A DNA stretch of 64,000 nucleotides, from contig NZ_JAMTCT010000017.1 of NCBI RefSeq assembly GCF_024171995.1, positions 1 through 64,000 of the forward strand. The letters run 5' to 3'. Under the pieces are notes generated by a model. It was not told where the DNA came from, ran no database searches, and worked only from the letters and a program-made list of their open reading frames with translations. A program made the translations under genes and the position numbers. Of the stretch, positions 8,085 to 53,382 are shown one piece after another. The DNA comes from Promicromonospora umidemergens. GTDB lineage: Bacteria; Actinomycetota; Actinomycetes; Actinomycetales; Cellulomonadaceae. Position 1 is the stretch's first letter. Every line of letters starts with the position of its first letter.

Positions 8085-8113
8085 GCAGCGCCCACAGGGA
8101 GGAGGACCACCGC

Positions 8114-9609: not shown

Positions 9610-9610
9610 C

Positions 9611-10699
9611 GTGACCGCGACCCTGCCGGCCGGCGCCCGCGCCTCGCGCACGACGTTCCACACGCTTACCGTGACCGACGTCGAGCGGCTCACCGACGAC
9701 GCGGCCGCCGTGACGTTCGACCTGCCCGCCGACCTGGCTGACGTCTTCGACTTCGCCGCCGGCCAGTCGCTGACGCTGCGGCGCACCGTCGACGGCGTCG
9801 AGCACCGCCGGACGTACTCGATCTGCTCGCCCGCTGGCAGCGCCCCGCGGATCGGGGTGCGCGAGATCCCCGACGGCCTGTTCTCGTCCTGGCTGGTGCA
9901 CGAGGTGCGGCCCGGCGACCAGGTCGAGGTGCAGCCGCCGAGCGGCAGCTTCCGGGCCGACCCGGCCCGCGGCGGACGGCACCTGTGCATCGCGGCGGGC
10001 TCCGGCATCACGCCGATGCTCTCCATCGCGGCCACGGTGCTGGGCAACCCGGACGCGCGGGTAACCCTGCTCTACGGCAACCGCACCACCAGCTCGGTGA
10101 TGTTCGCCGAGGAGCTGGCTGACCTCAAGAACGTCCACCGCGAGCAGCTCGACCTGGTCCACGTCCTGTCCAGGGAGCCGCGCGACGTCGAGCTGTTCTC
10201 GGGCCGGCTCGACGGCGACCGGCTGCGCAAGCTGCTGACGCTCGTGGTCCCGGTCGGCGACATGGACCACGTCTGGCTCTGCGGGCCGTTCGGCATGCTG
10301 ACCGACGCCCGGGCGGTGCTGGACGAGCTCGGGGTCCCCGCAGAGCGGGTGCACGTGGAGCACTTCTACGTCGACGAGCCCCCGCCGGAGCTGCGGCACG
10401 CCGACCGGGTCGTCGAGGGGGCGACGAGCCAGGTGACGGTCGTCCTCGACGGCCGGTCGACGACCAGCGCGATGCCGCAGGACACCAGGCTCCTCGACGC
10501 CGCGCAGGAGGTCCGTGCCGACCTGCCCTTCGCCTGCAAGGGTGGCGTCTGCGGCACCTGCCGCGCGAAGGTGCGCGGCGGAGAGGTCGACATGGTGCGC
10601 AACTACGCCCTCGAACCCGAGGAGGTCGCCGCAGGCTTCGTCCTCACCTGCCAGACGTTCCCGGTCAGCGCGGCGGTAGTCGTGGACTACGACGCATGA
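9611..10699 (+). CDS. paaE: 1,2-phenylacetyl-CoA epoxidase reductase PaaE
   Basis: PaaE passes electrons from NADPH to PaaA. In order it has an FAD-binding domain (RRTYSICSP, about residues 60-70), an NAD(P)-binding domain (IAAGSGITPMLSI and WLCGPFGM) and a plant-type [2Fe-2S] ferredoxin domain at the C terminus with cysteines in ACKGGVCGTCRA and a fourth in LTCQ. The 362-residue length is typical. It starts at GTG 9611, one base after the paaD stop, and its own stop overlaps the next start as ATGA. Confidence 0.95.
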   Translation: MTATLPAGARASRTTFHTLTVTDVERLTDDAAAVTFDLPADLADVFDFAAGQSLTLRRTVDGVEHRRTYSICSPAGSAPRIGVREIPDGLFSSWLVHEVRPGDQVEVQPPSGSFRADPARGGRHLCIAAGSGITPMLSIAATVLGNPDARVTLLYGNRTTSSVMFAEELADLKNVHREQLDLVHVLSREPRDVELFSGRLDGDRLRKLLTLVVPVGDMDHVWLCGPFGMLTDARAVLDELGVPAERVHVEHFYVDEPPPELRHADRVVEGATSQVTVVLDGRSTTSAMPQDTRLLDAAQEVRADLPFACKGGVCGTCRAKVRGGEVDMVRNYALEPEEVAAGFVLTCQTFPVSAAVVVDYDA

Positions 10700-11439
10700 G
10701 CGCGCCGCTCGTGGTCGAGGAGCACGACGACCGGGTGGTCCTGCGGCTGAACCGGCCCGAGGTCCGCAACGCGATCGACCGCGCCATGGTCGAGGCGCTG
10801 CACGACGCGTGCGCCGCGCTCGAGGCCGCACCACGGGTGGCGCTCCTGATCGGCTCCGGCGGCACGTTCGCGGCGGGAGCGGACATCGCCCAGCTGCGCG
10901 AGCGGCGCAGGGAGGACGCGCTCGCGGGCATCAACTCCGGCGTGTTCGACCGGGTCCACCGGCTGCCGATGCCGACCGTCGCGCTCGTCGACGGGTACGC
11001 GCTGGGGGGCGGGGCGGAGCTCGCGTACGCGTGCGACTTCCGGATCGGCACCCCAGCCACCCGGATCGGCAACCCGGAGCCCGGACTCGGCATCCTCGCG
11101 GCGGCCGGCGCGGCCTGGCGGCTGAAGGAGCTCGTCGGCGAGCCCCTGGCCAAGGAGGTGCTCCTGGCCGGTCGGGTGCTCGACGCCCAGGAGGCCCTGG
11201 GGGTGCGCCTGCTCAACGAGGTCGTCGAGGCCGGCGACCTCGAGGCGGCCGGGCACCGGCTCGCCGACCGCATCACCGCCCAGGCACCGCTCGCGGTGCG
11301 GCTCACCAAGTCCGTCCTCGACGCACCGCGCGACGCGCACCCGCTGATCGACGACGTCGCGCAGGCGGTGCTGTTCGAGACGCAGGACAAGACCGACCGC
11401 ATGACGGCGTTCCTCGACCGACGGAAGGAGCGGCGATGA
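10696..11439 (+). CDS. paaF: Enoyl-CoA hydratase, PaaF-like
   Basis: A 247-residue crotonase-fold protein. The oxyanion-hole segments GGTFAAGADI and GYALGGGAELAYACDF and the glutamate in GNPEPGLGI are those of an active enoyl-CoA hydratase, which would hydrate 2,3-dehydroadipyl-CoA in the lower pathway. Two crotonase-family genes are in this operon; I assign this one as PaaF because its sequence looks like a plain hydratase with both glutamate positions plausible. PaaG and PaaF could be exchanged, so the symbol is less sure than the family. Confidence 0.8.
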   Translation: MSAPLVVEEHDDRVVLRLNRPEVRNAIDRAMVEALHDACAALEAAPRVALLIGSGGTFAAGADIAQLRERRREDALAGINSGVFDRVHRLPMPTVALVDGYALGGGAELAYACDFRIGTPATRIGNPEPGLGILAAAGAAWRLKELVGEPLAKEVLLAGRVLDAQEALGVRLLNEVVEAGDLEAAGHRLADRITAQAPLAVRLTKSVLDAPRDAHPLIDDVAQAVLFETQDKTDRMTAFLDRRKERR

Positions 11440-12326
11440 CCGCGGATACCTCCGGTACCCCGGGCGCGGCCAGCACCGCCGACGCCGTCCTGCGCACCGC
11501 GGACGCCGTACCGCGGGCCGTCGGCGTGTACGGCGGCGGCCGTATGGGCGGCGGGATCGCGCACGCCTTCACGCTCGTCGGAGCGGCCGTCACCGTGATC
11601 GAGAACGACGCGACGTCGGCCCGGGCGGCACGCGTGCGGATCGAGGCGAGCCTCGCCAGGGCGGCGGCCAAGGGCGTACGGGTCACCGGCACGTTCGAGG
11701 TGGTGACCGACGCCGCGGCCCTGGCCGACTGCTCGCTCGTCGTCGAGGCGGTGCCCGAGCTGGTCGAGGTCAAGCACGAGGTGCTGCGGGCGATCGCCGC
11801 CGCTGCCCCCACCGCCGTGATCGGTAGCAACACCAGCTCCCTGTCGATCGACCGGCTGGCAAGCGCCCTGCCGGACCCGTCCCGCCTGGTCGGCCTGCAC
11901 TTCTTCAACCCGGTCCCGGTCAGCGGGCTGGTCGAGGTGGTGGTCGGCCCACGGACCGCGCCCGGTCTGGTCGAGGACGCCAGGGCCTGGGTCGCAGGTC
12001 TGGGCAAGACGGCCATCACCGTCAAGGACTCGCCGGGTTTCGCGAGCAGCCGGCTCGGTGTGGCGACAGCGCTGGAGGCGATGCGCATGCTGGAGGACGG
12101 CGTGGCCGACGCCGCCGACATCGACACGGCGATGACGCTGGGCTACCGGCACCCGGTGGGTCCGCTGCGCACCACCGATATCGTCGGGCTCGACGTCCGG
12201 CTGCACATCGCCGAGCACCTCGAGCGCGAGCTGGGGCCACGGTTCGCGCCGCCGCGGCTCCTCCGGGACAAGGTCGCGGCCGGTGAGCTGGGCCGCAAGA
12301 CCGGACAGGGTTTCTACACGTGGTGA
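11436..12326 (+). CDS. paaH: 3-hydroxyacyl-CoA dehydrogenase PaaH
   Basis: The 296-residue product has an N-terminal Rossmann domain (GVYGGGRMGGGIAHAF) after a 25-residue Ala/Thr-rich tail, then SNTSSLSI and the HFFNPVPVSGLVEVV block with the catalytic histidine, and a C-terminal dimerisation domain ending GRKTGQGFYTW. It oxidises 3-hydroxyadipyl-CoA to 3-oxoadipyl-CoA. The ATG overlaps the preceding stop as ATGA. Only the short single-domain form is present, not the long fused form of some proteobacteria. Confidence 0.92.
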   Translation: MTADTSGTPGAASTADAVLRTADAVPRAVGVYGGGRMGGGIAHAFTLVGAAVTVIENDATSARAARVRIEASLARAAAKGVRVTGTFEVVTDAAALADCSLVVEAVPELVEVKHEVLRAIAAAAPTAVIGSNTSSLSIDRLASALPDPSRLVGLHFFNPVPVSGLVEVVVGPRTAPGLVEDARAWVAGLGKTAITVKDSPGFASSRLGVATALEAMRMLEDGVADAADIDTAMTLGYRHPVGPLRTTDIVGLDVRLHIAEHLERELGPRFAPPRLLRDKVAAGELGRKTGQGFYTW

Positions 12327-12385
12327 CGCAAAGACGTGGTGACGCAGAGCCGCTCGCTGGGGCGGCCCATACCTCAGGAGGACCA

Positions 12386-13177
12386 ATGACCGACAGCCCC
12401 GTCACCGTCGACCGCACGGCCGCGGTAGCGGCCATCACGCTGAACGACCCCGAGCACCGCAACGCACTGACCGCCGCGGCCAAGGAGGCGCTGCGGGACG
12501 CCGTGGCGGAGGTGGCCGGCGACGAGGGGGTGCGCGCCGTCGTCCTCACCGGGTCGGCCAGCGCGTTCTGCCTGGGCCAGGACCTCGGCGAGCACTCGAA
12601 GGCGCTGGCGGACGGGCCCGAGGCGGCGTTCGCCACGGTCCGCGAGCACTACACACCCATCGTGCGGGACCTGCTGACCATGCCCAAGCCGGTGATCGCC
12701 GCTGTGGGCGGTACCTGTGTCGGCGCGGGGCTCGGCCTCGCGCTGGCCTGCGACCACCGGGTCTTCGCGACCGGCGTCAAGCTGGCCACCGCGTTCGCCG
12801 GGATCGGGCTGACCTTCGACACCGGCCTGTCCGTCACATTGCCGCGCGCGGTCGGGGACGCACGGGCGAAGGAGCTCCTCCTGTTCGGCCGGACCTTCAC
12901 CGCGGAGGAAGCCATCGGCTGGGGCATCTCCGGCGAGACGGTCGCCGCCGAGGAGGTGCTGCCCCGGGCGACCGCCCTCGCCCGGCAGCTCGCCGACGGG
13001 CCGACCACCGCCTTCGCGCAGAGCAAGCGCCTGATCGAGCGGGCGCACGGCCTGAGCCTCGACGAGGCCCTCGAGGCCGAGGCGCTCGGACAGACCAGGT
13101 GCGGCTCGACCAGCGACCACACGGCGGCCGTCGCGGCGTTCCTGGACCGTCGGACGCCCGTCTTCACCGGTCGCTGA
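12386..13177 (+). CDS. paaG: Ring-epoxide isomerase PaaG (crotonase family)
   Basis: A 263-residue crotonase-fold protein with SAFCLGQDLGEHSKAL, GGTCVGAGLGLALACDHRV and FAGIGLTFDTG. The last segment has Asp where hydratases have Glu, as in PaaG, the isomerase that turns the phenylacetyl-CoA epoxide into oxepin-CoA. The ATG at 12386 lies behind CAGGAGG; the longer frame begins inside paaH and has no ribosome site. It is the last gene of the operon; a thiolase (paaJ) and the phenylacetate-CoA ligase (paaK) do not follow, so the pathway needs genes elsewhere. Confidence 0.88.
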   Translation: MTDSPVTVDRTAAVAAITLNDPEHRNALTAAAKEALRDAVAEVAGDEGVRAVVLTGSASAFCLGQDLGEHSKALADGPEAAFATVREHYTPIVRDLLTMPKPVIAAVGGTCVGAGLGLALACDHRVFATGVKLATAFAGIGLTFDTGLSVTLPRAVGDARAKELLLFGRTFTAEEAIGWGISGETVAAEEVLPRATALARQLADGPTTAFAQSKRLIERAHGLSLDEALEAEALGQTRCGSTSDHTAAVAAFLDRRTPVFTGR

Positions 13178-13722
13178 GCCCGCTGGGCCAGCTCACCCTG
13201 AGGAAGATCGGGTTGCTGTAGAACCACAGGTCGTCCCAGGGGTTGGCCTCGCCGGGGGACATCCTGCGCCGGCCCCGTCGGGTCGACGTCGGCGCCCAGG
13301 TAGCCGGGCCGGCTCCGCTTGCCGTCGGTGCCACGCACCCGGACGTAGCCGTCGTGCTCGGCGACGAACGTGGAGGTCAGCTCGACCGAGCCGGACCTCC
13401 CGGCGGTGTCCCAGGAGCGGACCACCCTCGTGCCCGGAGCGTAGAGCGTGTCCGGATCGTCGGCGGGGCCGGTGATCCTGCCGCGGATCAGGTCGACACG
13501 AGCCAGCTCGGGCAGGAGTCCCGCGCAGTTGACGCTTTCTGCCAGATCGACGGTGATGGTCAGCTGGACCTCCGTCCGACCCAGGTCTTGTTGTAGGCGC
13601 CGGGCGGGAACGAGCTGTACTCGGCGACGGGCCGCCCCGCTCCGACCGGCGGCGGGTAGACGCCGGTGGGCGGCGACTGGGTCAAGAACCCCGTCGACCC
13701 GCTCGACCAGACCGGTTACGAC
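13164..13722 (-). pseudogene. PHP-domain / CehA-McbA-type phosphoesterase, C-terminal relic with frameshifts
   Basis: Read on the minus strand, three adjoining frames give a recognisable C-terminal region: PPTGVY...RPVAEYSSFPPGAYNKTW, then LTITVDLAESVNCAG...LARVDLIRGRITGP...GTRVVRSWD...FVAEHDGYVRVRGTDG...GADVDPTGP, then NPWDDLWFYSNPIFLRVSW and a stop at 13164. This order is what I know from the C termini of secreted PHP-domain metallohydrolases of the CehA/McbA type. One shift lies in the G-run 13254-13258 and another near 13575-13583; the catalytic N-terminal part is missing. The last 14 bases overlap the end of paaG. It is a dead remnant, although each shift taken alone could be a sequencing error. 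Confidence 0.7.
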
Positions 13723-42057: not shown

Positions 42058-42213
42058 CCGCCCAGGCTACGGGCATGACACATGTCATGGACGCGGCGTG
42101 CGAAGGGCCCGGGGAGCAGTGACATGAGGGCACTTCTGCGCAGGCCGCCCGACCTGTGGACTGGGGTCAGCACCGGGGGCTCACCCCGGCACCCACGACC
42201 ACAGGAGCACACC

Positions 42214-42780
42214 ATGGACCTCGTCGACACCCTCCAGGACCTCGTCGGGCAGGTGCCCGAGCTCGTGCAGCCGCTGATCGTCGCGGCAGCGGGGGCGATC
42301 CCGTTCATCGAGGGCGAGGGCGGCGCGGCGATCGGCATCCTCGGCGGCATCCACCCGGTCGTCGCCGCGATCGCCGCGATGGCCGGCAACTTCCTCGTCG
42401 TGGCCGCGCTCGTGCTGCTCGGCTCCGGTGCGCACGACGCCGTCGTGACCCGGCACCGCGCGAAGGTCCGGGCACGGGACGGCGTGCCGGTCGGCGGGCC
42501 CGCACCGGGGGCGGCGCCGGACGACGGCCTCGACGACAACCTCGATGGCGGTCGCAGCTCCGTGCGCAGGGCGAAGTTCCAGCGCGCCTACGAGCGCTAC
42601 GGAGTACCGGGCGTGAGCTTGCTCGGCCCGCTGCTGCTGCCCACGCACTTCACCGCCACGATGCTCGCTGCCTCCGGCGTGGGCAAGGCCCGCATCCTGA
42701 TCTGGCAGGCGCTCGCGATCATCGGCTGGACGACGGTCACCGCGGTCGTCATCGGCGGCGTCGTCAACGCCGTCGGCTGA
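42214..42780 (+). CDS. Small multidrug export-family membrane protein
   Basis: A 188-residue membrane protein of the Sm_multidrug_ex type (PF06695). It has an N-terminal helix pair with AAAGAIPFIEGEGGAAIGILGG, a helix at about residues 55-75, a cytoplasmic Gly/Pro/Asp-rich loop (about 85-115) and YGVPGVSLLGPLLLPTHFTATMLAASG followed by a last helix. Transport function in this family is inferred from annotation rather than proven. ATG 42214 has AGGAG upstream. It is divergent from the two-component genes. Confidence 0.82.
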   Translation: MDLVDTLQDLVGQVPELVQPLIVAAAGAIPFIEGEGGAAIGILGGIHPVVAAIAAMAGNFLVVAALVLLGSGAHDAVVTRHRAKVRARDGVPVGGPAPGAAPDDGLDDNLDGGRSSVRRAKFQRAYERYGVPGVSLLGPLLLPTHFTATMLAASGVGKARILIWQALAIIGWTTVTAVVIGGVVNAVG

Positions 42781-42906: not shown

Positions 42907-42925
42907 GTTGAGAACCGTTCTCAAC
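42907..42925. promoter_or_regulatory. Zur-box-like palindrome 1
   Basis: GTTGAGAACCGTTCTCAAC has perfect nine-base arms around one base. Its inner 15 bases match the actinobacterial Zur consensus TGAAAATGATTTTCA at 10 of 15 positions. Confidence 0.5.
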
Positions 42926-42948
42926 TCTGCTTCACTGTACCCGATTAG

Positions 42949-42963
42949 CGGGAATGATTATCA
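42949..42963. promoter_or_regulatory. Zur-box-like site 2
   Basis: CGGGAATGATTATCA keeps the AATGATT centre of Zur sites and matches the same consensus at about 11 of 15 positions. It is 52 bases before the first start codon of the metal-uptake locus, where a repressor would block the promoter. Confidence 0.55.
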
Positions 42964-43014
42964 ATCTCCCCAGTTGTCCGACCCTAGATGATTCGCCCCC
43001 AGAAAGGATCCCTA

Positions 43015-45897
43015 GTGGTGAGAGTCACCGCCCTTCGCCGCCCTCCAGCGGCGATACCTCGTGCAGGCACAGCGCTCGTCGGCATGACCGCGCTCCTCGC
43101 GGCGTTCGTCGTCCCCGCGGTCAGCACTGCCGAGGCGATACCCGTCCGCACTGCCGTCGCGGACCGCGAGCACGTCCTGGACCGCGGCCACGTCGACGGG
43201 TTCGAGACCACCTACGACGCCGACGCCGGCAAGCTCGTGCTGTCGGTCCGGGACGACACCCGCATCTACGACAGCGAGCCCGTCTTCCGAGCGCCCGAGT
43301 CGACGACGTTCGCCTACGAGGACCCCCAGAGCCGGGTCACGCTCCCCGCGGCCGAGGGCAGCTGGGGGTTCCTCGGTGAGCACGGCGGATCCACGGTCTG
43401 GCTCGGTTCGCAGACGGGCGGCGACCAGGAGCATGCCCCCTGGGTCGGCTGGAGCACCGAGCGGCTGCTGGACTCGCTGGCCGGGACCGGCATCACACCC
43501 GCATCGGGTCAGCCCGTGTCGCTCGACGTCGTGGTCGACGGGCCGGGTGACGTCCTCACCTTCCAGAACGACGCCTTCGGGCAGCCGGTCAACCGGTACC
43601 TCGACACGACGACGTCCGACGGCGGGACCATCCCCGTGGCGGCCAACGCGCACGTGCACACCAACTGGATCTTCACAGCGGAGGGCGACTACACGCTGAC
43701 CGTGCGCCCGTCCCTCGCGACGGCCGACGGCGGCACGGTGACAGGGGATCCCGCGACCTACCACGTCCGGGTGGGTGAGCGACCCGTCACGACGGCGCTC
43801 ACCGTCACGGCCGACCGGGCCGAGCACACCGAGGGCGACACCGCCGTGCTGACCGCCACCCAGGACCCGCCGACCGGGCTGTCGGTCCACCGGTGGGAGG
43901 TCGCGCCAGCGGGCGGCGGCCAGTTCGCACCGGTCGACGGCCAGGAGGCCGCCACCTACGAGCGCAGCCTCACGACGGCGGACGACGGCGCACGCGTGCG
44001 TGCGGTCCTGCTCGACGGCGACCGCACGGCGGGGACCTCCGAGCCGGTGACCCTCTCGGTCGAGGCGCGGCCGGCTCCGACGCCGACGCCCACGCCGACG
44101 CCGACTCCGGAGCCGACTCCGGAGCCGACTCCAGAACCGACGCCCACGCCGACCCCGGACCCCACGCCAACGGACCCGGGAGCCGAGGAACCCGACGGTG
44201 ACGACGCCGACCGCGAGTACGTGCTGGACCACGGGCACGTCGACGCGTTCGAGACCAGCTACGACGCCGAGGCGGAGCACCTGACACTGTCGGTCAAGGA
44301 CGACAGCCGCATCCATGCGGACCGCACGGTCTACCGGTCGCCGGAGGACGTGACGCTGGCCTACGAGGACGCCCGCGGCGAGGTCCGGCTGCCCGAAGCG
44401 ACCGGCGCGTGGGCCTTCCTCGGCGAGCACGGTGGCCAGGCCGCCTGGCTCGGTTCTCAGACAGGCAGTGACCAGGAGTACCTGCCGTGGGCGGGCTGGA
44501 GCACCGAGCGGCTGCTGTCGTCGCTGGCCGGGACGGGGATCACGCCGGCTTCCGGCAGCCCGGTGTCGCTCGTGGTGCGGGTCGACGGCCCGGGCGACGT
44601 GTTCACGTTCCAGAACGACTCGTTCGGTCAGCCGGTCAACCGGTACCTCGACACGACGTCGTCGGACGGCGGGACCATCCCGATCGCGGCGAACGCGCAC
44701 GTGCACACCAACTGGGTCTTCACCGCAGAGGGTGACTACCACCTTGAGGTGACCCCGCGCTTGCGCACGGCCGACGGTCGCACGATCACCGGGCCGCCCG
44801 CCGACTATCACTTCCGGGCGGGAGGCCAGCAGACGGACGGCCCCGGCAAGGGCCCTGACACGGACCCGGGCACGGACCCCGGCAAGGACCCGGGCACGAC
44901 GCCGGACGGCGAACCCGGCAACGAACCCGGTAGCGAGCCCGGCAACGGTCCCGATAACGCTCCCGGCAGCGATGCGAGCGGTGACCCGGCGACCGGCGGG
45001 ACCGGCCCGGGCGTCCAGCCCGAGCAGTGCATCGCGGAGCAGGTCGAGCGGGAGGTCAGCACGCCCGAGGCGGGCACGCCCGGGTCGGGCGCGTCCGAGG
45101 CGGACGGCATCAGCTCCGGCCACTTCGACTTCGGCTCGATGGTGCAGGACGGCGAGCTCGTCGCCCGGGTGAAGGACGACCGCGAGCAGCCCTCGTCCTG
45201 GGTCGACCCGGCGTCGCTCACCTTCCGGCTGGGCGAGGCCGCGGAGCACGAGGTGCCGACGGGCAGCGAGTTCGCGTTCCTCGGCACGCCCGGTTCGACG
45301 ATCTGGTCGGTCGGTCAGGTCCAGGAGCCGGGCGTTCCGTGGATCGGCTGGAACACGCAGCATCCCAGCCTGATCGAGGCAGCGGACGGTCCGGTCACCT
45401 TCACGCTCGACGGCGTCGAGGGCCCCGGGGAGCTGGGTGTGTACGCCACCGGCACGTTCGGGGGCGTGGGGGCCAAGAGCTTCGGCACCATGTCCGGGTT
45501 CCCGAAGTCCCTGTCCGTGCCGCTCAACCAGCACGTGCACGCCAACTGGGCGTTCACAGAGCCGGGCGCCTACTCCGTGACGGTGACGCAGTCGGTCCCC
45601 CTGAAGAGCGGCGGCACGGCCTCGGCCGCGGCCACGCTGAAGTTCTCGGTGGGTGACACGTCGGGAACCACGTCCGAGCCCACGTCCGAGCCCACGTCGG
45701 AGCCCACGACGGGAACCACGACGCAGACCAGCTTCGTGGGACGTACGGCGTCGGGCGGGGAGTGTGACCTGAGCGCCGCTCAGCGTGCCGCGCTGGCGAG
45801 CACGGGCGCGAGCGTGTTCCAGCCGCTCGCCCTGGCAGGTCTCCTCGTGCTGATGGGCGCGGTGCTCGTCGTCGTCGCCCGTCGTCGTCGGGCATGA
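43015..45897 (+). CDS. LAxTG wall-anchored surface protein with three HxHxNW (choice-of-anchor M) domains
   Basis: A secreted 960-residue protein. After a Sec signal (hydrophobic stretch ending near VSTAEA) come three copies of the actinobacterial surface-anchored domain, at about residues 50-260, 405-610 and 690-880. Each begins with GHVD or GHFD, has WVGWSTE or WIGWNTQ, and ends with HVHTNWIFTAEGDY or HVHANWAFTEPGAY. Linkers are Ig-like (copies 1-2), TPTPEP repeats and GTDPGKDP repeats. The C terminus is LASTG, a helix and RRRRA, a class E sortase signal. Repeated His pairs suggest metal binding. GTG 43015 or 43018 follows AAAGGA; ATG 42988 has no ribosome site. It leads a coupled metal-ABC operon. 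Confidence 0.88.
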   Translation: MVRVTALRRPPAAIPRAGTALVGMTALLAAFVVPAVSTAEAIPVRTAVADREHVLDRGHVDGFETTYDADAGKLVLSVRDDTRIYDSEPVFRAPESTTFAYEDPQSRVTLPAAEGSWGFLGEHGGSTVWLGSQTGGDQEHAPWVGWSTERLLDSLAGTGITPASGQPVSLDVVVDGPGDVLTFQNDAFGQPVNRYLDTTTSDGGTIPVAANAHVHTNWIFTAEGDYTLTVRPSLATADGGTVTGDPATYHVRVGERPVTTALTVTADRAEHTEGDTAVLTATQDPPTGLSVHRWEVAPAGGGQFAPVDGQEAATYERSLTTADDGARVRAVLLDGDRTAGTSEPVTLSVEARPAPTPTPTPTPTPEPTPEPTPEPTPTPTPDPTPTDPGAEEPDGDDADREYVLDHGHVDAFETSYDAEAEHLTLSVKDDSRIHADRTVYRSPEDVTLAYEDARGEVRLPEATGAWAFLGEHGGQAAWLGSQTGSDQEYLPWAGWSTERLLSSLAGTGITPASGSPVSLVVRVDGPGDVFTFQNDSFGQPVNRYLDTTSSDGGTIPIAANAHVHTNWVFTAEGDYHLEVTPRLRTADGRTITGPPADYHFRAGGQQTDGPGKGPDTDPGTDPGKDPGTTPDGEPGNEPGSEPGNGPDNAPGSDASGDPATGGTGPGVQPEQCIAEQVEREVSTPEAGTPGSGASEADGISSGHFDFGSMVQDGELVARVKDDREQPSSWVDPASLTFRLGEAAEHEVPTGSEFAFLGTPGSTIWSVGQVQEPGVPWIGWNTQHPSLIEAADGPVTFTLDGVEGPGELGVYATGTFGGVGAKSFGTMSGFPKSLSVPLNQHVHANWAFTEPGAYSVTVTQSVPLKSGGTASAAATLKFSVGDTSGTTSEPTSEPTSEPTTGTTTQTSFVGRTASGGECDLSAAQRAALASTGASVFQPLALAGLLVLMGAVLVVVARRRRA

Positions 45898-47531
45898 CCA
45901 CGACCCCACCATGGCGGCCCGCCGCGGTCAGCATGATCGCGGCGGGCTCGCTGGTCCTCGCCGGCTGCGCCGGCGGCAGCGGTGCGGCGGACGACGACCG
46001 GCTCCGCGTGGTCACGACCACCGGCGTCCTGGCCGACCTGGTGCGCAACGTGGCCGGTGACGACGTCGAGGTGACGTCGATCGTGCCGCCGACAGGCGAC
46101 CCGCACTCCTACGACCCGACCCTGCGTGACGTACGCGACGTGGTCTACGCCGACGTGGCCTTCAGCAACTACCTGCTGCTGGAGGACCACTCGGTGGTCA
46201 CCACCCTTGACGCGAACCTGCCCGACGGAGCCCCGAACATCTCGCTGGCCGAGTCGGCCACGAAGTACGCCGCCGAGGTGATCCCGCTGGTCGAGAACGT
46301 CAACCTGGACACCATCTGGCTCGGGCTCCGTGTGAGCGGCACCGGCGAGGAGCTCGGCGCGACGCGGGCGTCGGAGGCCCGGCTCAGGGTGACGGACGTG
46401 GACGGGCCGGGCCGCCTGGCCGGATACCTGACCGAGACCTTCGGGCAGCCGCGGGTCTACTTCGACTCTGGCGACGGGTTCGACGCCACCGACGGGTACG
46501 CCCGCGACACCGCGACGCTGCCAACGGACGCACACACCCACATGAGCTGGGCATTCACCGAACCAGGCATCTACAAGGTAGCGATGGAGTCGGACCTGGT
46601 GGTCGAGCCCGGCGAGGACCCGCGGCCGCTGGGGGAGACGTCGGTGACCTTCGCCGTCGGTGTGGATCCGCACTCCGTGCCCGGCATGGCGGACGCCCGG
46701 GTGCTCGACAGCGGGCACGCGGACGTCACCGTGGACCTCGACGACGGAGCGATCGTGCTGCAGGCCGACACACCGGCGGGGGAGAGCCCGGACCAGGACG
46801 CGGACGAGTCTCAGAGTCCCCAGTCCCAGAGTCCCCACGGCGCCGCCACGCACACGCACGCGGAGACGCTCGACCCCGCGTCGACCGTCGTCTCGGTGCC
46901 GAACAAGGCGCTCGCCTCCGTGCCCAACCAGCCGGGCTTCGGATTCCTCGGCAGACCAGGGGACCAGGTGTACCTGCTGCCCCAGGCCGTGCTGGGCAAG
47001 CACGTCCACGGCGAGATCGACCCCCACCTGTGGCAGGACGTCCGCAACGCCCAGGCGTACGTGGAGGTCATCCGCGACACCCTGGTCGCGGCCGCGCCGG
47101 ACCAGGCGGACCAGTTCCGGGCCAACGCAGAGGCTTATCTGGCCCAGCTGCGTCGCACGGACGCCTACGTCGAACGGACGATCGCCCAGATCCCCCGCTC
47201 CCGCAGGCACCTGGTCACCACGCACGACGCGTTCGCCTACCTCGGCAAGGCGTACGACGTCGACATCGCCGGCTTCGTGACGCCCAACCCTGCCGCCGAG
47301 CCCAGCGTGGCCGACCGGATCAAGCTCACCCGGACCGTCCAGGCGCTCGACGTGCCTGCCGTGTTCCTCGAACCCAACCTCGCCGCGCGGTCCACCGTGC
47401 TCACCGAGGTGGCGCACGAGAACGACCTGCGGGTCTGCGAGATCTACTCCGACGCGTTCGACGACCGCGTCACCACCTACGTCGACCTGATGCGCGCCAA
47501 CGCCGACAGCCTCCGCCGGTGCCTGACATGA
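45894..47531 (+). CDS. Metal ABC transporter substrate-binding lipoprotein with an inserted HxHxNW domain
   Basis: A 545-residue lipoprotein with lipobox LVLAGC near residue 24. The cluster A-I metal-binding fold (ZnuA/TroA type) is split. The first lobe is at about 38-135 (VTTTGVLADLVRNVAGDDVEV, PPTGDPHSYDP with a His ligand); an inserted surface-anchored domain at about 140-275 has DAHTHMSWAFTEPGIY; a Ser/Gln/His-rich hinge (ATHTHAET) follows; the second lobe resumes near 355 (HGEIDPHLWQDVRNA, VTTHDAFAYLGKAY, FVTPNPAAEPS, FLEPN). Zinc or manganese is the expected cargo. The ATG overlaps the preceding stop as ATGA. Confidence 0.9.
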   Translation: MTTTPPWRPAAVSMIAAGSLVLAGCAGGSGAADDDRLRVVTTTGVLADLVRNVAGDDVEVTSIVPPTGDPHSYDPTLRDVRDVVYADVAFSNYLLLEDHSVVTTLDANLPDGAPNISLAESATKYAAEVIPLVENVNLDTIWLGLRVSGTGEELGATRASEARLRVTDVDGPGRLAGYLTETFGQPRVYFDSGDGFDATDGYARDTATLPTDAHTHMSWAFTEPGIYKVAMESDLVVEPGEDPRPLGETSVTFAVGVDPHSVPGMADARVLDSGHADVTVDLDDGAIVLQADTPAGESPDQDADESQSPQSQSPHGAATHTHAETLDPASTVVSVPNKALASVPNQPGFGFLGRPGDQVYLLPQAVLGKHVHGEIDPHLWQDVRNAQAYVEVIRDTLVAAAPDQADQFRANAEAYLAQLRRTDAYVERTIAQIPRSRRHLVTTHDAFAYLGKAYDVDIAGFVTPNPAAEPSVADRIKLTRTVQALDVPAVFLEPNLAARSTVLTEVAHENDLRVCEIYSDAFDDRVTTYVDLMRANADSLRRCLT

Positions 47532-47542
47532 AGGAGTACCCC

Positions 47543-48574
47543 ATGACATCGCCGACCACGCGGAGCCGCACGGCGGCCGCGTGCATGGCCGTGCTGCTCG
47601 CCGGCCTCGCGATCGGTGCCGCACCGGCCGCCCTGGCCGGCACCGAGGACGACGCCGGGCTGGAGCAGACGGTCGAAGCAGGCGAAGAGGTCGTGACAGA
47701 GGACGCCGTCGTGACCGACGGCCACGTCGACGTCGGCCCCCGCTTCCTCGACGACGAGTGGACGATGCTCGCGCGCGACGACCGCGAGGTCCCGTCCGTC
47801 TGGCGCGACCCCGCGCGGACCGTCCTGCACCTCGGCGACGCGGCGGTGCTGCCAGCACCGGACGGCCCGGACTACGAGTTCCTCGGCGTCGAGCCGGGCA
47901 CCCCGCTGCACGTCGTCCCGCAGACACAGACACCCGACGTCGTCTGGCTGGGCTGGAACACGCAGGACCCCCGCGTCGTGGACTCGGTCGAGCAGGGAGC
48001 GACGCTCCGGCTCGACGGGCTGGACGGCCCCGGAGAGCTGTTCGTGTTCCTGCAGGAGGGCGTGACCGGGCCGCCCAACGTGCTGTGGGACTCGGGCGAA
48101 CCCCTGCCGCAGGAGCTGTGGATGGAGGTCAACACCCACGTCCACGCCAACTGGGTGTTCACAGAGCCGGGCATCTACCGGCTGGACGTGACCACGCTCG
48201 CCGACCTGGCCGACGGGACCCAGGCCGAGGACGAGAGCACCCTCGTGTTCGCCGTCGGCCAGGACACCGATCCGGCGCAGGCGCTCGCGGCGGTGGCCGC
48301 CGACACGACGTCCGACACGGCGTCCGACACGGCGGACGAGCAGACGGCGGACGGCGCCGCCTCGTCGGACGCCTCGCCGGCTGCGGACCCGGCCACGGAG
48401 GTGACGGACGCACCCGAGGCGGGCGCGCCGTCGTCGGACAGCGGCGGCTCCGCAATGCTGGTCTGGGGTGCCGCGCTGGCCGCGGTGGTCCTGCTCCTGG
48501 TCGTGGTCGGTCGCGTCCTGCGTGCCCGCCGGGCGCGGGACGCGGCCGATCAGGCCACCGGGGACGCGTCGTGA
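47543..48574 (+). CDS. Membrane-anchored surface protein with one HxHxNW domain
   Basis: A 343-residue exported protein: Sec signal (ACMAVLLAGLAIGAAPAALA), one surface-anchored domain at about 50-240 (TDGHVDVGPRF, WLGWNTQDPRV, NTHVHANWVFTEPGIY), an Ala/Asp/Thr-rich spacer with TSDTASDTAD repeats, and a C-terminal helix followed by basic residues. No LAxTG motif is visible before the helix, so it is probably held in the membrane rather than bound to the wall. AAGGAG stands six bases before ATG 47543. Confidence 0.87.
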   Translation: MTSPTTRSRTAAACMAVLLAGLAIGAAPAALAGTEDDAGLEQTVEAGEEVVTEDAVVTDGHVDVGPRFLDDEWTMLARDDREVPSVWRDPARTVLHLGDAAVLPAPDGPDYEFLGVEPGTPLHVVPQTQTPDVVWLGWNTQDPRVVDSVEQGATLRLDGLDGPGELFVFLQEGVTGPPNVLWDSGEPLPQELWMEVNTHVHANWVFTEPGIYRLDVTTLADLADGTQAEDESTLVFAVGQDTDPAQALAAVAADTTSDTASDTADEQTADGAASSDASPAADPATEVTDAPEAGAPSSDSGGSAMLVWGAALAAVVLLLVVVGRVLRARRARDAADQATGDAS

Positions 48575-49434
48575 CGGCGACGGTCGCGGTCGACGCGAGC
48601 GCCGCGGCCCGACCGGGACCCGCACCCGTGCTGCAGGTGCGGGACCTTGCCGTCGCGCTCGGCGGGCGGCCCGTGCTGGACGACGTCCGGCTCGAGGTCG
48701 CCGAGGGCGAGCTGCTGGGCCTGGTCGGCCCGAACGGCGCGGGCAAGACGACGCTGCTGCGCGCCGTGCTTGGCCTGGTGCCGTCGTCCGGCCGGATCAC
48801 CATCGAGGGACAGGACGCGCGCTCGGGCCGCGCGCGCACGAGGTCGGCACGCGCGACGCGCTCGATCGGCTACGTGCCGCAGCGCCACGAGTTCGCCTGG
48901 GACTTCCCCGTCACCGTGGAGGAGGCGGTGCTCACCGGGCGCGTGGCCCGGATCGGCTGGTTGCGCGGTGCCCGGACGGAGGATTACCGAGCGGTACGCC
49001 GGGCGCTGGACCGCGTGGAGATGACCCACCTGCGGGCCCGGCCCGTCGGCGAGCTCTCCGGCGGCCAGCGCCAGCGGGTCCTGGTAGCCAGGGCACTGGC
49101 CCTCGACCCGCGGATCCTTCTGCTGGACGAGCCGTTCACCGGCCTGGACGTACCCACCCAGGAACACCTGACCGAGCTGTTCCGCGAGCTGGCGGACGAG
49201 GAACGAGCCGTGATCATGACGAACCACGACCTGGTGGGTGCGGTCCACGCGTGCGACCGGCTGTGCCTGCTGAACCGGACCGTCGTCGCGTCCGGCACGC
49301 CCGCGGAGCTGGCCGGTCCGGAACCCTGGATGACGGCGTTCGGTGTCTCCGCCGGCTCGCCGCTGCTGACGGCGATCGCTCAGGTCGCCAAGGCACGGAC
49401 GACCGGCTCGCCGGACGGGGGCGGCAGCGCATGA
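48571..49434 (+). CDS. Metal ABC transporter ATP-binding protein
   Basis: A 287-residue ATPase of the ZnuC/MntB type: Walker A GPNGAGKTT (about residue 50), Q-loop YVPQRHEFAWDFP, signature LSGGQRQRV, Walker B ILLLDEPF and the switch His in MTNHD. It begins with a GTG overlapping the preceding stop. The motif FDWDFP-like after the Q-loop is usual for zinc and manganese importers. Confidence 0.93.
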   Translation: MTATVAVDASAAARPGPAPVLQVRDLAVALGGRPVLDDVRLEVAEGELLGLVGPNGAGKTTLLRAVLGLVPSSGRITIEGQDARSGRARTRSARATRSIGYVPQRHEFAWDFPVTVEEAVLTGRVARIGWLRGARTEDYRAVRRALDRVEMTHLRARPVGELSGGQRQRVLVARALALDPRILLLDEPFTGLDVPTQEHLTELFRELADEERAVIMTNHDLVGAVHACDRLCLLNRTVVASGTPAELAGPEPWMTAFGVSAGSPLLTAIAQVAKARTTGSPDGGGSA

Positions 49435-50327
49435 TCTCGCCCATCGACTTCGTCCACGACCTGCTCAATCCCGACCTCGCCTTCCTGCCCAAGGCGCTGC
49501 TCATGGCGGTGCTCTCCAGCGTGGTGTGCGGCGTGGTCGGCACCCACGTGGTGCTGCGCGGCATGGCCTTCATCGGCGACGCCGTGGCGCACGCAGTCTT
49601 CCCCGGGCTCGCGGTGGCGTTCGTGCTGCAGGGCTCGCTCGTGCTGGGCGGGGCCATCGCCGGGATCACCACGGCGCTGCTGGTCGCGCTGTTCGCGCAG
49701 AACCGCCGGCTGCGCGAGGACTCGGTGATCGGCGTCTTCTTCGTCGCCGCGTTCGCGCTCGGGATCGTGATCATCTCGGGCGCGCCCGGGTACGCGGGGT
49801 CGTTGCAGGACTTCCTGTTCGGGTCCATCGTCGGCATCCCTGACGAGGACGTGCTGATCGCGGTCGTGGTCGGGCTGGTCCTGATGGCCGTGCTGTTCAT
49901 GTTCCACAAGGAGCTGGTCGCCGTCAGCCTGGACCGGGAGAGCGCGCGCGCTCTCGGGCTGCCCGTCCTGCGGCTCGACCTGCTGCTCTACGTGGTGGTC
50001 GCGGCCGCGATCGTGATCTCGGTGCAGACCATCGGCAACGTGCTCGTCCTCGCGCTCCTGGTCACCCCGGCTGCCGCCGCCCGGCTGCTGACCGACCGGC
50101 TCGCGCCGATGATGCTGCTCGGCCCGACCATCGGCGGGGGATCGGCGCTCGTGGGCCTGTACCTGTCGTGGAGCCTGGACCTCCCGGTCGGCGGCACGAT
50201 CGTGCTCGTCGCCACTGCCGTGTTCCTACTGGCCTGGCTGCTCGCGCCCCGGCACGGCGTGCTGGCCGGCGCCGTGCTGCGGCGTGGGCGTCAGGCGAGG
50301 CGCGTGGCCCGGACGGGCGCCTCCTGA
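49431..50327 (+). CDS. Metal ABC transporter permease
   Basis: A 298-residue ABC-3 family permease with about eight helices. Family motifs are VVGTHVVLRGMAFIGDAVAHAVFPG, VGVFFVAAFALGIVII-type helix 4, the cytoplasmic loop ARALGLPVLRLDLLLY and IGNVLVLALLVTPAAAARLL. A short basic tail follows. The ATG overlaps the ATPase stop as ATGA, so the two are made together. Confidence 0.93.
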   Translation: MISPIDFVHDLLNPDLAFLPKALLMAVLSSVVCGVVGTHVVLRGMAFIGDAVAHAVFPGLAVAFVLQGSLVLGGAIAGITTALLVALFAQNRRLREDSVIGVFFVAAFALGIVIISGAPGYAGSLQDFLFGSIVGIPDEDVLIAVVVGLVLMAVLFMFHKELVAVSLDRESARALGLPVLRLDLLLYVVVAAAIVISVQTIGNVLVLALLVTPAAAARLLTDRLAPMMLLGPTIGGGSALVGLYLSWSLDLPVGGTIVLVATAVFLLAWLLAPRHGVLAGAVLRRGRQARRVARTGAS

Positions 50328-50397
50328 GCGTTGTTCGTGATTCCCGCGGGCAGCACCTCGTCGCTCGCGGCCCTACGCATGGAATGAGAGGTTCATC

Positions 50398-53382
50398 GTG
50401 AGAGCGATGCGCTCGAACGAACGAGCAGACCGATCGTCTGCCCGGCGACCGCTGGGGGTGCTGGTCACCTCGGCGCTCGTCGCTGCGGCGGCGCTCGGCA
50501 CGGCGAGCCCGGCGCTGGCCGACGACGGCCCGGCACCGGACCCGGTCGAGTACCAGGTGCTGGAGAAGGTGCACACGGATGCGGTCTCCACGTTCCTGGA
50601 CGAGGGGACGTTCACCCTGGGTACGAGGGCCGACCTGCCGGAGGGCAACGGCACACGCCTGGATCCCGCCGAGACCCTGTTCCACGTCGACGACGCGTCG
50701 CGCCAGAGCGTCCCGGCGGGCTACGAGTTCGTGGCGCCGGCCGGCGGGTCGGTCTGGATCGCGCCGGAGTCGAACCCGGCCGGCGGTGACGGCTACACCC
50801 AGCTGTGGCCGGGGTTCTCGACCGAGTCGGTACCGGTCGGGGCCGTCGACGGGAACTCGACGAAGTTCCGCCTCGTGTCGATGGACGGCCCGGTGGGTGG
50901 GGACCTCGAGGTCTGGCGGGGGTCGGGCTCCGGCCTGACGCGGATGTGGTCGTCGGACGAGGGGATCGACAGCTTCGCCGTCGGCCGCACCCACATGCAC
51001 GCCAACTGGGCCTTCACCAAGGCGGGAACCTACCGGCTGACCGTCGAGGGGGCGGCGGCGATCGGTGGCGAGCCGGTCACCGGCACGGCCGTGTACACGT
51101 TCGTCGTCGGCGGCCTGCCGGAGATCGTCGGGACGACGACGACGCTGGAGGCCTCGGCGACCGAGGTCGTCGAGGGCAGCCCCGTGACCTTCTCCGCGGC
51201 CGTCGCCCCTGCGGGCGTCGAGGGCCATGTCGAGCTCCGCGACGGCTCGGCGGTGCTGGGCCACTCCGAGGTGTCCGACAGCGGTGCGGCGGAGCTGGAG
51301 GTGTCCGGCCTGGGGGTCGGCACTCGTTCGATCACCGCGGTGTTCGTGCCGTCGGTCGCCAACTTCACGACCGGGTCGACCTCCGACCCGGTCGCTGTCA
51401 CCGTCGTCGACGGTTCGGGTATGGAGTTCGGTGTCGTGGGCGTCGCGGACGCGTACGAGCCGGGCGACACGCTGACCGCTACCGCCGTCGGGGCGACGCT
51501 GAAGGAGAACCAGGTCTTCCGCTGGCTCCTGCGCACCCAGGGCTATTCCTCCACCGTCGTCGCACAGTCCGGCGCCGGCGCGACGTACTCCCGGGAGCTC
51601 GACGCGCTGGCGGACGGCATCGAGATCAGCGTGGCCGTCTACGACTCGGCCACCCGCACGACGCTGGCCGAGAGCCCCTGGGTACCGATCGCCGTCGTCG
51701 GGCAGGGTGCACAGCCTGTGATCACGGCGACCGAGGGCTTCCACGACCCGCTGCTGCCGGGGGACGTCATCGAGTTCACGGTGAGCGGGCGCGAGCTGGC
51801 CGAAGGCGAGTCGATCACGTGGGGCTTCGTGCCCTACGGCGGGTACTTCGGCGCGATCATCCCGGAGTACGAATGGGACGCCACCTACACCGACGACGCC
51901 CGGACCACGGTGCGCCTGAGGTCCAAGGTCAACGCGCCGGAGACTCGGCCGTACTCCGGGCCCCTGACCGCGAGCGTCGTCAAGGACGGCGTGACGATCG
52001 CCCGTTCGGACTTCCACACGATCACTACCGGGCACCGCGAGCTGAACGTCACCGGGCACCGCAACCTCTACCGCGAGGGCGGGACCGTGACGATGGACGC
52101 GAGCGTCTACCCGGTACGGGAGGGCGACGAGCTCGCCTACACCTGGAACTTCACGAAGGGCGACGTGAGCGAGGTCTGGGGTGCCGAGCAGCAGGCCACG
52201 GCCGCGCTGACCGGACCGGAGCTCTCGCTGGCCGAGCACGACGGCGGAACACTGCGGCTGGACGTCTACAGCGACGGCCTGCTCGCGCAGCAGTCGCCGA
52301 GCTACCCGGTCAACGTGACCGCCGACCTGACGTCCCAGATCCTCGAGATCGGGACCCTCGCCGGCCACTACCACCAGGGTGACGCGCTCGACCTCACGCT
52401 GACGGTGGACCCGGAACCCCTGGACGGCGACGTGCTGGAGTGGCAGTGGAAGTGGCCGGGCTCCGAGGACTGGAAGGCCATGACCGGTGTCGAGGACAAC
52501 GTCTTCGCGACGGCCGCCGAGCAGGCGCTCGACGGGGTGGAGATCCGCGCCGTCCTGACGTACGCCGACCCGGAGACCGCGTCGGCGGTCACCGAGACCC
52601 GGACCGTCCACGTGGACGACCACGGCGCCCCCGCCCGGCAGCAGGTCGCCGTGGTCGGTGAGGCGGCGTACCAGGAGGGCGAGACCGTCACGCTGTCCGC
52701 CGAGGTCACGCCCGGCACGGTGCTCACGGCGTACCAGTGGGAGCGGAAGGCCGCTCCTGCCGACGAGTTCTCGGTGGTCGAGGGTGAGAGCGGAGCGACC
52801 CTCACGTTCACGGCGGCCGCCGGCGATCACGGTACCGAGTACCGCGTCACCGCGATGACGCCTAGCGGCCTGGTCGGGTACGGGCCTTCTCCGGCGACCG
52901 CTCTGACGGTGACCGAGGCCGACGACGAGCCGGGTACGGATGAGCCGGGTACGGATGAGCCAGGTACGGATGAGCCGGGCACGGATGAGCCAGGTACGGA
53001 TGAGCCGGGCACGGACGAGCCAGGTACGGATGAGCCGGGCACGGACGAGCCGGGCACGGACGAGCCGGACACGGACGAGCCAGGCACGGACGAGCCGGGT
53101 ACGGACCAGCCGGGTACGGATGAGCCAGGCACGGATGAGCCGGGTACGGACCAGCCAGGCACGGATGAGCCGGGTACGGACCAGCCAGGCGGTGAAGAGT
53201 CGGAGCCGTCCGTTCCGCGGGGACGGCCGACCGACGAGCAGGGATCGCCGAGCCCGGAGGGCGTGCTCGCGGCCACCGGCTCCGCCGGTGTTCCGCTCCT
53301 CGTCGGGGGAGCGCTCCTGCTGACCCTCGGCGGAGCACTCCTGATCGCGGTGCGCGGACGAGCTCAGCGTCGGGCCGCCTGA
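50398..53382 (+). CDS. LAxTG wall-anchored surface protein with HxHxNW domain and EPGTD stalk
   Basis: A 994-residue secreted protein. After a Sec signal (ending SPALADDG, about residue 42) one surface-anchored domain covers about 50-240 (RTHMHANWAFTKAGTY). Several Ig-like beta domains follow: a bacterial Ig-like 3 domain (TTTTLEASATEVVEGSPVTF) and three or more that begin like VTATEGFHDPLLPGDVIEF. A stalk of 17 EPGTD-type repeats (about 843-930) then leads to LAATG, a helix and RGRAQRRAA, a class E sortase signal. It starts at GTG 50398 behind GAGAGG, 70 bases after the permease. It is probably the outermost part of the metal-uptake apparatus; adhesion is another possible role. Confidence 0.85.
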   Translation: MRAMRSNERADRSSARRPLGVLVTSALVAAAALGTASPALADDGPAPDPVEYQVLEKVHTDAVSTFLDEGTFTLGTRADLPEGNGTRLDPAETLFHVDDASRQSVPAGYEFVAPAGGSVWIAPESNPAGGDGYTQLWPGFSTESVPVGAVDGNSTKFRLVSMDGPVGGDLEVWRGSGSGLTRMWSSDEGIDSFAVGRTHMHANWAFTKAGTYRLTVEGAAAIGGEPVTGTAVYTFVVGGLPEIVGTTTTLEASATEVVEGSPVTFSAAVAPAGVEGHVELRDGSAVLGHSEVSDSGAAELEVSGLGVGTRSITAVFVPSVANFTTGSTSDPVAVTVVDGSGMEFGVVGVADAYEPGDTLTATAVGATLKENQVFRWLLRTQGYSSTVVAQSGAGATYSRELDALADGIEISVAVYDSATRTTLAESPWVPIAVVGQGAQPVITATEGFHDPLLPGDVIEFTVSGRELAEGESITWGFVPYGGYFGAIIPEYEWDATYTDDARTTVRLRSKVNAPETRPYSGPLTASVVKDGVTIARSDFHTITTGHRELNVTGHRNLYREGGTVTMDASVYPVREGDELAYTWNFTKGDVSEVWGAEQQATAALTGPELSLAEHDGGTLRLDVYSDGLLAQQSPSYPVNVTADLTSQILEIGTLAGHYHQGDALDLTLTVDPEPLDGDVLEWQWKWPGSEDWKAMTGVEDNVFATAAEQALDGVEIRAVLTYADPETASAVTETRTVHVDDHGAPARQQVAVVGEAAYQEGETVTLSAEVTPGTVLTAYQWERKAAPADEFSVVEGESGATLTFTAAAGDHGTEYRVTAMTPSGLVGYGPSPATALTVTEADDEPGTDEPGTDEPGTDEPGTDEPGTDEPGTDEPGTDEPGTDEPGTDEPDTDEPGTDEPGTDQPGTDEPGTDEPGTDQPGTDEPGTDQPGGEESEPSVPRGRPTDEQGSPSPEGVLAATGSAGVPLLVGGALLLTLGGALLIAVRGRAQRRAA
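52927..53196 (+). repeat. 15-bp tandem array encoding the EPGTD stalk
   Basis: About 17 full in-frame copies of a 15-base unit (GAGCCGGGTACGGAT and close variants) plus a partial one. Wobble-position differences (GGC/GGT, GAC/GAT, CCA/CCG) show that copies have diverged at synonymous sites. Substitutions to EPDTD and QPGTD occur toward the end. Confidence 0.93.

Follow-up and report, generated by a model that had tools for sequence, protein, structure and literature searches.

We analysed a stretch of 64,000 nucleotides from the actinobacterium Promicromonospora umidemergens (positions 1 to 64,000 of contig NZ_JAMTCT010000017.1, RefSeq assembly GCF_024171995.1; hereafter the window), in which six open reading frames (ORFs), all on the forward strand, form one block at 42988-53382 according to the ORF list and profile searches, and encode an ATP-binding cassette (ABC) transporter of the anchored-repeat type together with surface proteins. 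The genes stand in the order three-unit surface protein, lipoprotein, one-unit protein, ATPase, permease and one-unit surface protein, where a unit is one copy of a repeated domain; they are listed below with model scores and cut-offs. At four of the five junctions neighbouring genes share 4 bases, and the remaining one, from the permease stop to the start of the last gene, is a gap of 70 bases; because the junctions overlap, the six genes are probably expressed together. A preliminary description of this DNA had given the same order, strand and overlaps at most junctions, and the ORF coordinates agree with it.

42988..45897, forward strand: surface protein 1, 969 amino acids, three units, LASTG sorting signal (TIGR03773 430.6 bits, cut-off 190.3)
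45894..47531, forward strand: ZnuA-type substrate-binding lipoprotein (substrate-binding protein, SBP), 545 amino acids, lipobox LAGC, nested domain (TIGR03772 753.1 bits, cut-off 350.45; PF01297 8.1e-66)
47528..48574, forward strand: ZnuE-like protein, 348 amino acids, one unit, C-terminal hydrophobic stretch (TIGR03773 190.8 bits, cut-off 190.3)
48571..49434, forward strand: ABC ATPase, 287 amino acids, GTG start (TIGR03771 339.8 bits, cut-off 268.8)
49431..50327, forward strand: ABC-3 permease, 298 amino acids (TIGR03770 444.9 bits, cut-off 296.8; PF00950)
50398..53382, forward strand: surface protein 3, 994 amino acids, GTG start, one unit, immunoglobulin-like (Ig-like) part, GTDEP repeat, LAATG sorting signal (NF038134 127.3 bits, cut-off 55; TIGR03773 88.3 bits, below 190.3)

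Five of the six proteins passed the curated cut-off of one of the TIGR03770-TIGR03773 families, the ZnuE-like protein by just 0.5 bit, while surface protein 3 passed those of NF038134 and TIGR03769 and fell below that of TIGR03773. The scores of TIGR03770, TIGR03771 and TIGR03772 confirm the earlier assignment to the anchored-repeat ABC systems. With Pfam, the SBP, ATPase and permease families were found, as well as Ig-like, PKD and extensin-like parts in surface protein 3, and there was no match at E 0.001 in surface protein 1 or the ZnuE-like protein. Read by eye, the C-termini of surface proteins 1 and 3 show LASTG and LAATG, respectively, each with a hydrophobic stretch and a basic tail behind it, and the genome holds four sortase genes; a long GTDEP-type repeat precedes the sorting signal of surface protein 3 (window 52900-53200) and could perhaps be a wall-spanning stalk. 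No LPxTG/LAxTG sorting motif was seen by eye in the ZnuE-like protein (47528-48574), which is therefore probably membrane-anchored, so that of the three surface proteins described earlier the first and the last carry sorting signals and the middle one appears to lack one. The counterpart in Corynebacterium diphtheriae is znuAECB-znuF-znuG, dip0438-dip0443 (PMC12445094, PMC6711530). The locus thus holds a real, apparently co-transcribed system that is already named in NCBIfam (TIGR03770-TIGR03773, TIGR03769 and NF038134, anchored repeat ABC transporter), where the model names give the parts and no mechanism, and it is not new as a system.

The motif HxHxxW occurs six times in four proteins, three times in surface protein 1 and once each in the lipoprotein, the ZnuE-like protein and surface protein 3, and TIGR03769 scored above its curated cut-off at all six places, which matches the six copies counted before. 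The single HxHxNW domain of that description is real, but the motif is just the end part of a 184-position domain, NF038134 (choice-of-anchor M); TIGR03769 (41 positions) spans this end including HxH, and the start of the domain carries a second motif, HxD, which had been missed, as had the reversed halves in the lipoprotein. NF038134 matched the five surface units with E-values between 3.3e-36 and 3.4e-55 and the two pieces in the lipoprotein with 3.8e-15 and 1.2e-5, and the recurrence of the domain is therefore beyond chance. Across the whole genome NF038134 matched at ten places, seven in the operon (five whole units and the two lipoprotein pieces) and three in contig C21. No solved structure related to the domain was found by sequence at E <0.05, and three matches at 0.087, 0.17 and 0.73 were taken as chance. 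Outside the actinobacteria, the control genome of Deinobacterium chartae had a TIGR03769 match below cut-off. The units and the two lipoprotein halves are as follows.

43174..43773, forward strand: unit 1 of surface protein 1, in A-B order, HxD ... HVHTNW (NF038134 1-184, 1.0e-36)
44221..44814, forward strand: unit 2 of surface protein 1 (NF038134 1-182, 3.3e-36)
45109..45651, forward strand: unit 3 of surface protein 1 (NF038134 2-184, 4.6e-47)
46284..46595, forward strand: half B (HTHMSW), coming first in the lipoprotein (NF038134 positions 71-164, 3.8e-15)
46701..46988, forward strand: half A (GHAD), coming second in the lipoprotein and holding a His/acidic variable loop (NF038134 positions 1-73, 1.2e-5)
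47708..48256, forward strand: unit of the ZnuE-like protein (NF038134 1-184, 3.4e-55)
50557..51108, forward strand: unit of surface protein 3 (NF038134 1-184, 1.2e-37)

As read from these profile matches, the copy in the lipoprotein is a circularly permuted domain, with its halves reversed relative to the contiguous canonical domain. Each of the five window units was divided at the W-x-G-W/F motif, so that half A carries HxD and half B carries HxH, and the profiles built from these halves were extended with non-SBP-like proteins alone, the seed being at most 300 rows per half plus the five window units; when the 305 seed rows of each half were checked afterwards, none was an SBP. The order B-A was found in all 91 SBP ORFs, which came from 80 named loci (the best 80 of 260 places in a scan of named genomes) and 10 loci of relatives, and from the window itself, the gene of which is also L017; the SBP of L018 was not among the extracted sequences. 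The same order was found in seven further SBPs, namely six divergent ones and that of L016, which had first escaped the SBP word pattern and so stood as B-A among the non-SBP ORFs. The half order in the non-SBP ORFs was AB in 227, ABAB in 51, ABABAB in 13 and another pattern in 35, the last comprising one ABABABAB, the L016 SBP and 33 with a missing, single or fragmentary half. NCBI's NF038134, which is independent of the home-made half-profiles, also matches the lipoprotein as 71-164 and then 1-73; the home-made A profile matches half A of the lipoprotein in its later part only (model 29-73, 3e-10).

Exchanging the halves gave results in the same direction. A full-length model, built from the aligned surface units, matched 57 SBP inserts about twice each, with a median best score of 72.3 bits over 56% of the model, and the same inserts with halves exchanged gave one match with a median of 95% of the model and 123.6 bits, while exchanging the halves of 91 surface units lowered the score from 238.4 to 125.6 bits and the coverage from 98% to 55%. 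Redundancy had been removed by shared 4-mers, which kept 55 of the 91 SBPs and 110 of 224 units; the 57 aligned SBPs are these 55 plus those of the window and L016, and the 91 aligned units are 86 of the 110 plus the five window units. The A-to-B gap in surface units has a median of 2 residues (386 gaps below 60 residues, range -11 to 23), the B-to-A linkers between surface units have at least 40 residues (109 linkers, median 66), and the B-to-A gap within the SBP has a median of 12 residues (8-47). The possibility that the surface arrays are B-A repeats with misplaced borders is ruled out by these lengths together with the 227 single A-B ORFs. Four SBPs taken up as candidates for an unpermuted domain (G177, G216, G424 and G433, with a one-stretch NF038134 match from position 42, 30, 30 and 58, respectively) were all B-A by the half-models, as were two others.

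In the half-B tree the 31 sampled SBPs form a pure clade (support 0.81), while in the half-A tree the smallest clade with all 31 also includes 5 non-SBP units (0.84); with the L016 SBP labelled as a surface protein, the other 30 SBPs were monophyletic for both halves (support 0.88 in A and 0.95 in B). A single origin of the permuted copy is thus likely, but the picture is not clean because the half-A clade takes in these 5 units. The nested copy could go back to a B-A segment that was cut out of surface units arranged in tandem.

The place of the insert was read from matches of the SBP profile in solved SBPs together with a side-by-side reading of the sequences. In solved SBPs the profile finds two pieces, one N-terminal (2-65 in the best match) and one that starts at about 311-319, and these lie 38 residues apart in the best match (5hx7, Bacillus MntA) and about 250 apart in this lipoprotein; the insert would therefore lie just before DPHLW. 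The ZnuA-like SBP of the same genome has a His/Glu-rich loop just before its DPHFW, and this protein and the AztC of the genome align to the lipoprotein only after the insert and not over the N-terminal lobe. By this comparison, the nested domain occupies the place of the flexible His-rich loop of zinc SBPs. For ZnuA a role of this loop in taking over zinc from ZinT has been proposed, and in AztC it is needed for the transfer from AztD (PMC6689063).

Across the 57 SBPs, H176, H178, H237 and D239 of the insert are invariant, as are H340 and H406 outside it, while H33 and D482 are conserved in at least 90%. The lipoprotein's own site would consist of H33, H340, H406 and probably D482, where the ligand roles of the three histidines are assumed from the cluster A-I family. 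The third ligand place (406) holds His in the lipoprotein and Glu in the solved 5hx7. The protein thus has the features of a zinc-type cluster A-I SBP, namely PF01297, three His ligands and His instead of Glu at the third place.

The main text of PMC12445094 states the ZnuA motif as being in reverse order with 45 residues between, and in it the strings 'permut' and 'insertion' do not occur, nor is the reversed order presented there as a permutation or an insertion. Permutation or nesting of the domain in this SBP was found nowhere in the literature searched, with most subscription papers outside the search. As far as we found, the nested circular permutant at the place of the docking loop is the new point of this locus and is worth following.

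By SBP, the nearest named relatives are in Promicromonospora and Myceligenerans. The SBP was above cut-off in 12 of 59 related genomes, the own genome included, and in 4 of 13 of the own genus, and its spread is therefore patchy. Of 394 genomes drawn from the whole class, 27 have the SBP at an E-value of at most 1e-60 and 28 have the domain at 1e-12 or below; all 27 SBP genomes are among the 28, each with at least 4 domain matches, and the remaining genome, G208, has a domain match and no SBP. At least one other domain ORF lies near the SBP in all of the 80 named loci, and the order SBP, one-unit protein, ATPase, permease is kept in 76 of them, with the other surface genes varying in number and place.

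To judge from the surface units, the histidines of the two motifs look like ligands. Among 382 distinct A-B surface units from the 80 loci (identical units, A-B matches 60 or more residues apart and B matches not reaching model position 60 were left out), 340 carry both HxD and HxH, 39 carry neither and 3 are discordant; of the latter, those of L088 and L087 have H.D near, and not clearly at, the aligned place, and that of L101 looks like a wrong-frame stretch. W-x-F is kept in 336 of the 340 units with both motifs and in 37 of the 39 without them. On a tree with the His columns masked, parsimony counted 7 changes of HxD and 6 of HxH, the latter all losses. HxH is absent from 41 units, which form one group of 34, one of 3 and four singles, and HxD has also gone in five of these six groups, except for one H.D (L088); because the HxH-less units fall into so few groups, the 39 units with neither motif reflect few events. 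The three His seem to behave as one functional set that is not needed for the fold, and their joint presence leaves the identity of the metal undecided by itself. Each of the window units carries HxD and HxH, in reversed order in the SBP. The group of 34, all but one also without HxD, comes from Actinoplanes and relatives (loci such as L068, L073, L061 and L074), and its members may be docking units without a metal site.

The C. diphtheriae work gives the His pairs experimental weight as ligands, as the preliminary description had proposed. The His of HxD/HxH are needed in ZnuE and for the effect of ZnuG, with growth phenotypes of His-to-Ala changes; zinc-dependent thermal shifts are reported for ZnuE, ZnuF and ZnuG; and the HxD/HxH residues lie close together in AlphaFold Database models of ZnuE and ZnuG (PMC12445094). 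The joint absence of both motifs here points the same way, and the thermal shifts are not tied to the motif. The earlier remark that the function of the wall parts is not established is partly out of date, as this 2025 paper addresses the wall proteins.

Upstream of the operon lie two putative operators.

42909..42923, strand not assigned: Zur-type operator candidate TGAGAACCGTTCTCA, a perfect 7-1-7 palindrome, 64 bases before the first start codon
42949..42963, strand not assigned: second, degenerate Zur-like site CGGGAATGATTATCA, 40 bases after the first, 12 of 15 to the typed 15-mer

The layout of TGAGAACCGTTCTCA is the same as that of the mycobacterial Zur-box consensus, and ZnuABC and CobW-like proteins are listed as Zur-regulated (PMC7174638); repression by zinc and Zur is reported for the C. 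diphtheriae operons (PMC6711530, PMC12445094). Pairs of exact-match sites 39-40 bases apart were also found in L039, L040 and L042. The pattern TGANAAYSRTTNTCA occurs at 7 places in the 6.6-Mb genome, one of them at 42909, and the reversed pattern at 1 place. The other six all adjoin zinc-linked gene families. One stands at the start of the called SBP ORF in an operon of SBP, ATPase, permease and FUR genes, one before an AztD gene that scores 461.2 bits against a cut-off of 400, and one before a CobW-type GTPase that exceeds the cut-off of PF02492 with 118.3 bits and reaches none of the NCBIfam equivalog cut-offs. Two precede one and the same MRF-like CobW protein (129.8 bits, where 375 would be required), and the sixth lies in the promoter that separates two divergent surface proteins with the domain from a run of FUR, AztD (471.9 bits) and AztC-like SBP genes (165.6, below 350). 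This set of sites looks like the Zur regulon of the genome. The genome has three FUR-family genes, and since no Zur model reached its cut-off for their proteins, it is by inference that we speak of a Zur protein here. The palindrome TGANAANNNTTNTCA occurs 37 times in the 1.23 Mb of the 80 named loci, where three control words occur 1, 0 and 0 times, and 18 of the 37 matches lie at most 700 bases upstream of a first domain codon.

The sites at L131, L132 and L133 precede the AztD gene, the CobW-type GTPase and an MRF-like protein, respectively. L122 (C21:50000-69000, 7046-13611) is a second zinc-linked locus, divergent from the FUR gene, AztD and AztC-like SBP; in its 857-amino-acid surface protein one unit keeps HxD and HxH and a later unit has lost both, and it also encodes a 213-amino-acid secreted protein with a weak domain match and has further similar palindromes in the promoter beside the pattern match. 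Upstream of the operon on the same strand, ORF 42082-42780 encodes an apparent small membrane protein, and the palindrome lies in the intervening space.

Because of the Zur-type palindrome, the third-ligand His in the lipoprotein and the published C. diphtheriae zinc work, the metal is most likely zinc, which supports the earlier reading of the locus as a metal importer. Manganese or iron as the main substrate would fit the good matches that the SBP gives with Mn- and Fe-binding SBPs, among models as well as among solved structures, but the palindrome is common to zinc-linked families, the third ligand place holds His and not Glu, and the published data are on zinc, so that we regard these metals as very improbable.

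The closest known system is the C. diphtheriae Znu system, which shares the SBP, a ZnuE-like one-unit membrane protein, ATPase, permease, wall proteins, HxD/HxH and their reverse order in the SBP. Zur repression is reported there, whereas here an operator-like palindrome is known from sequence; the wall genes of C. diphtheriae follow the transporter with their own promoter (ZnuF with two units, ZnuG with one), whereas here a three-unit wall gene comes first and overlaps the SBP gene. The ZnuABC/ZinT and AztABC/AztD systems share a cluster A-I zinc SBP and an ABC-3 permease, and ZinT and AztD are separate extracytoplasmic zinc proteins that hand zinc to the SBP or are thought to; AztD is a beta-propeller (PMC6689063). 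Unlike in these systems, the SBP here also contains the donors' domain in nested form. The genome encodes two AztD proteins elsewhere, which match the AztD model and not NF038134, and no AztD match was found in the six operon genes, so that the AztABCD type was not encountered here. The second domain of streptococcal AdcA is ZinT-like and fused at the C-terminus, and it is not a nested permuted copy of a surface domain. The AdcA/AdcAII system with Pht resembles the present one in having, beside a zinc SBP, surface proteins in which His motifs are repeated (PMC12445094), and in a zinc lipoprotein of two domains (PMC7858048); the motif of Pht, HxxHxH (PMC12445094), differs from HxD/HxH.

We consider it probable that the operon encodes a Zur-repressed zinc importer whose surface units pass zinc via the nested domain to the SBP site and the permease. 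Under zinc starvation Zur repression would be lifted and the operon expressed; the wall-anchored surface proteins 1 and 3 and the membrane-anchored ZnuE-like protein would display five units, each with one zinc site made of HxD from the domain start and HxH from near its end; and zinc would pass to the sixth, permuted copy nested in the lipoprotein, which would act as a built-in receiver, and then to the lipoprotein's own site, the ABC-3 permease and the cell. Capture of zinc by the units is likely, and the handover is put forward as a proposal. The sequence itself shows the genes, the layout of the domain with its permutation, the ligand motifs occurring or missing together, and an operator-like palindrome in common with zinc-linked genes; binding of this palindrome by Zur, binding of zinc by the motifs in this organism and each transfer step are inferences. 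To the further idea that donor and receiver sites share one fold, in a self-similar relay from wall unit to nested unit to SBP site, we give somewhat less than even weight.

Several points weigh against such an importer with handover. The box at 42909 was among the sequences used to write the search pattern; any TGANAANNNTTNTCA match is present in 26 of the 80 loci and in the expected position in 11, and 54 have no exact match, where variant boxes or other regulators may be at work. In C. diphtheriae, ZnuF and ZnuG are dispensable with the transporter and reduce growth without it, the deletion of znuA gave only a modest effect, and the ZnuE triple His-to-Ala mutant still shifts with zinc, so that the thermal-shift data cannot tie binding to the motif (PMC12445094). 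In the literature we found no demonstration of zinc transfer for this family. The growth impairment by ZnuF and ZnuG without the transporter fits sequestration or storage as well as a relay, and storage is named by the authors (PMC12445094): the units would keep zinc at the wall, either in reserve or out of reach of competitors, and the importer would take up free zinc with no handover. The number of units per fetched locus, 2 to 11 with a median of 6 (some loci are cut by contig ends), would agree with such a store, but the same domain lies inside the SBP itself, 76 of 80 loci have a one-unit ZnuE-like gene between the SBP and ATPase genes, and C. diphtheriae needs znuE to grow on low zinc (PMC12445094), so that we hold a mere store to be rather unlikely.

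It is also conceivable that the nested domain only pairs homotypically with the surface units and that the His sites hold structural zinc, again with no handover. Self-association is frequent among repeated domains, which counts for docking, and the zinc response that the ZnuE triple mutant retains comes with lower stability (PMC12445094). However, the His-less units stand in several separate tree groups and nearly all keep W-x-F, and the fold therefore seems to survive without the ligands, which makes docking alone quite unlikely in our view. For the importer with handover, the fact that C. diphtheriae can do without its wall proteins speaks for an auxiliary role of these, and the ZnuE-like protein, next to the transporter, would be the better candidate donor. 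In all, the interpretation of the preliminary description is partly supported: the metal importer and the His pairs as ligands find support, and the metal relay from wall to lipoprotein to permease would be a hypothesis for which the published genetics are mixed, with ZnuE needed and ZnuF and ZnuG not.

To our knowledge, the passage of zinc across the Gram-positive wall to a membrane lipoprotein is poorly understood. With one domain on wall proteins, on a membrane protein and inside the receiving lipoprotein, a stepwise handover becomes directly testable in this family: removal of H176, H178, H237 and D239 should separate capture from import, and the natural His-less units are ready negative controls.

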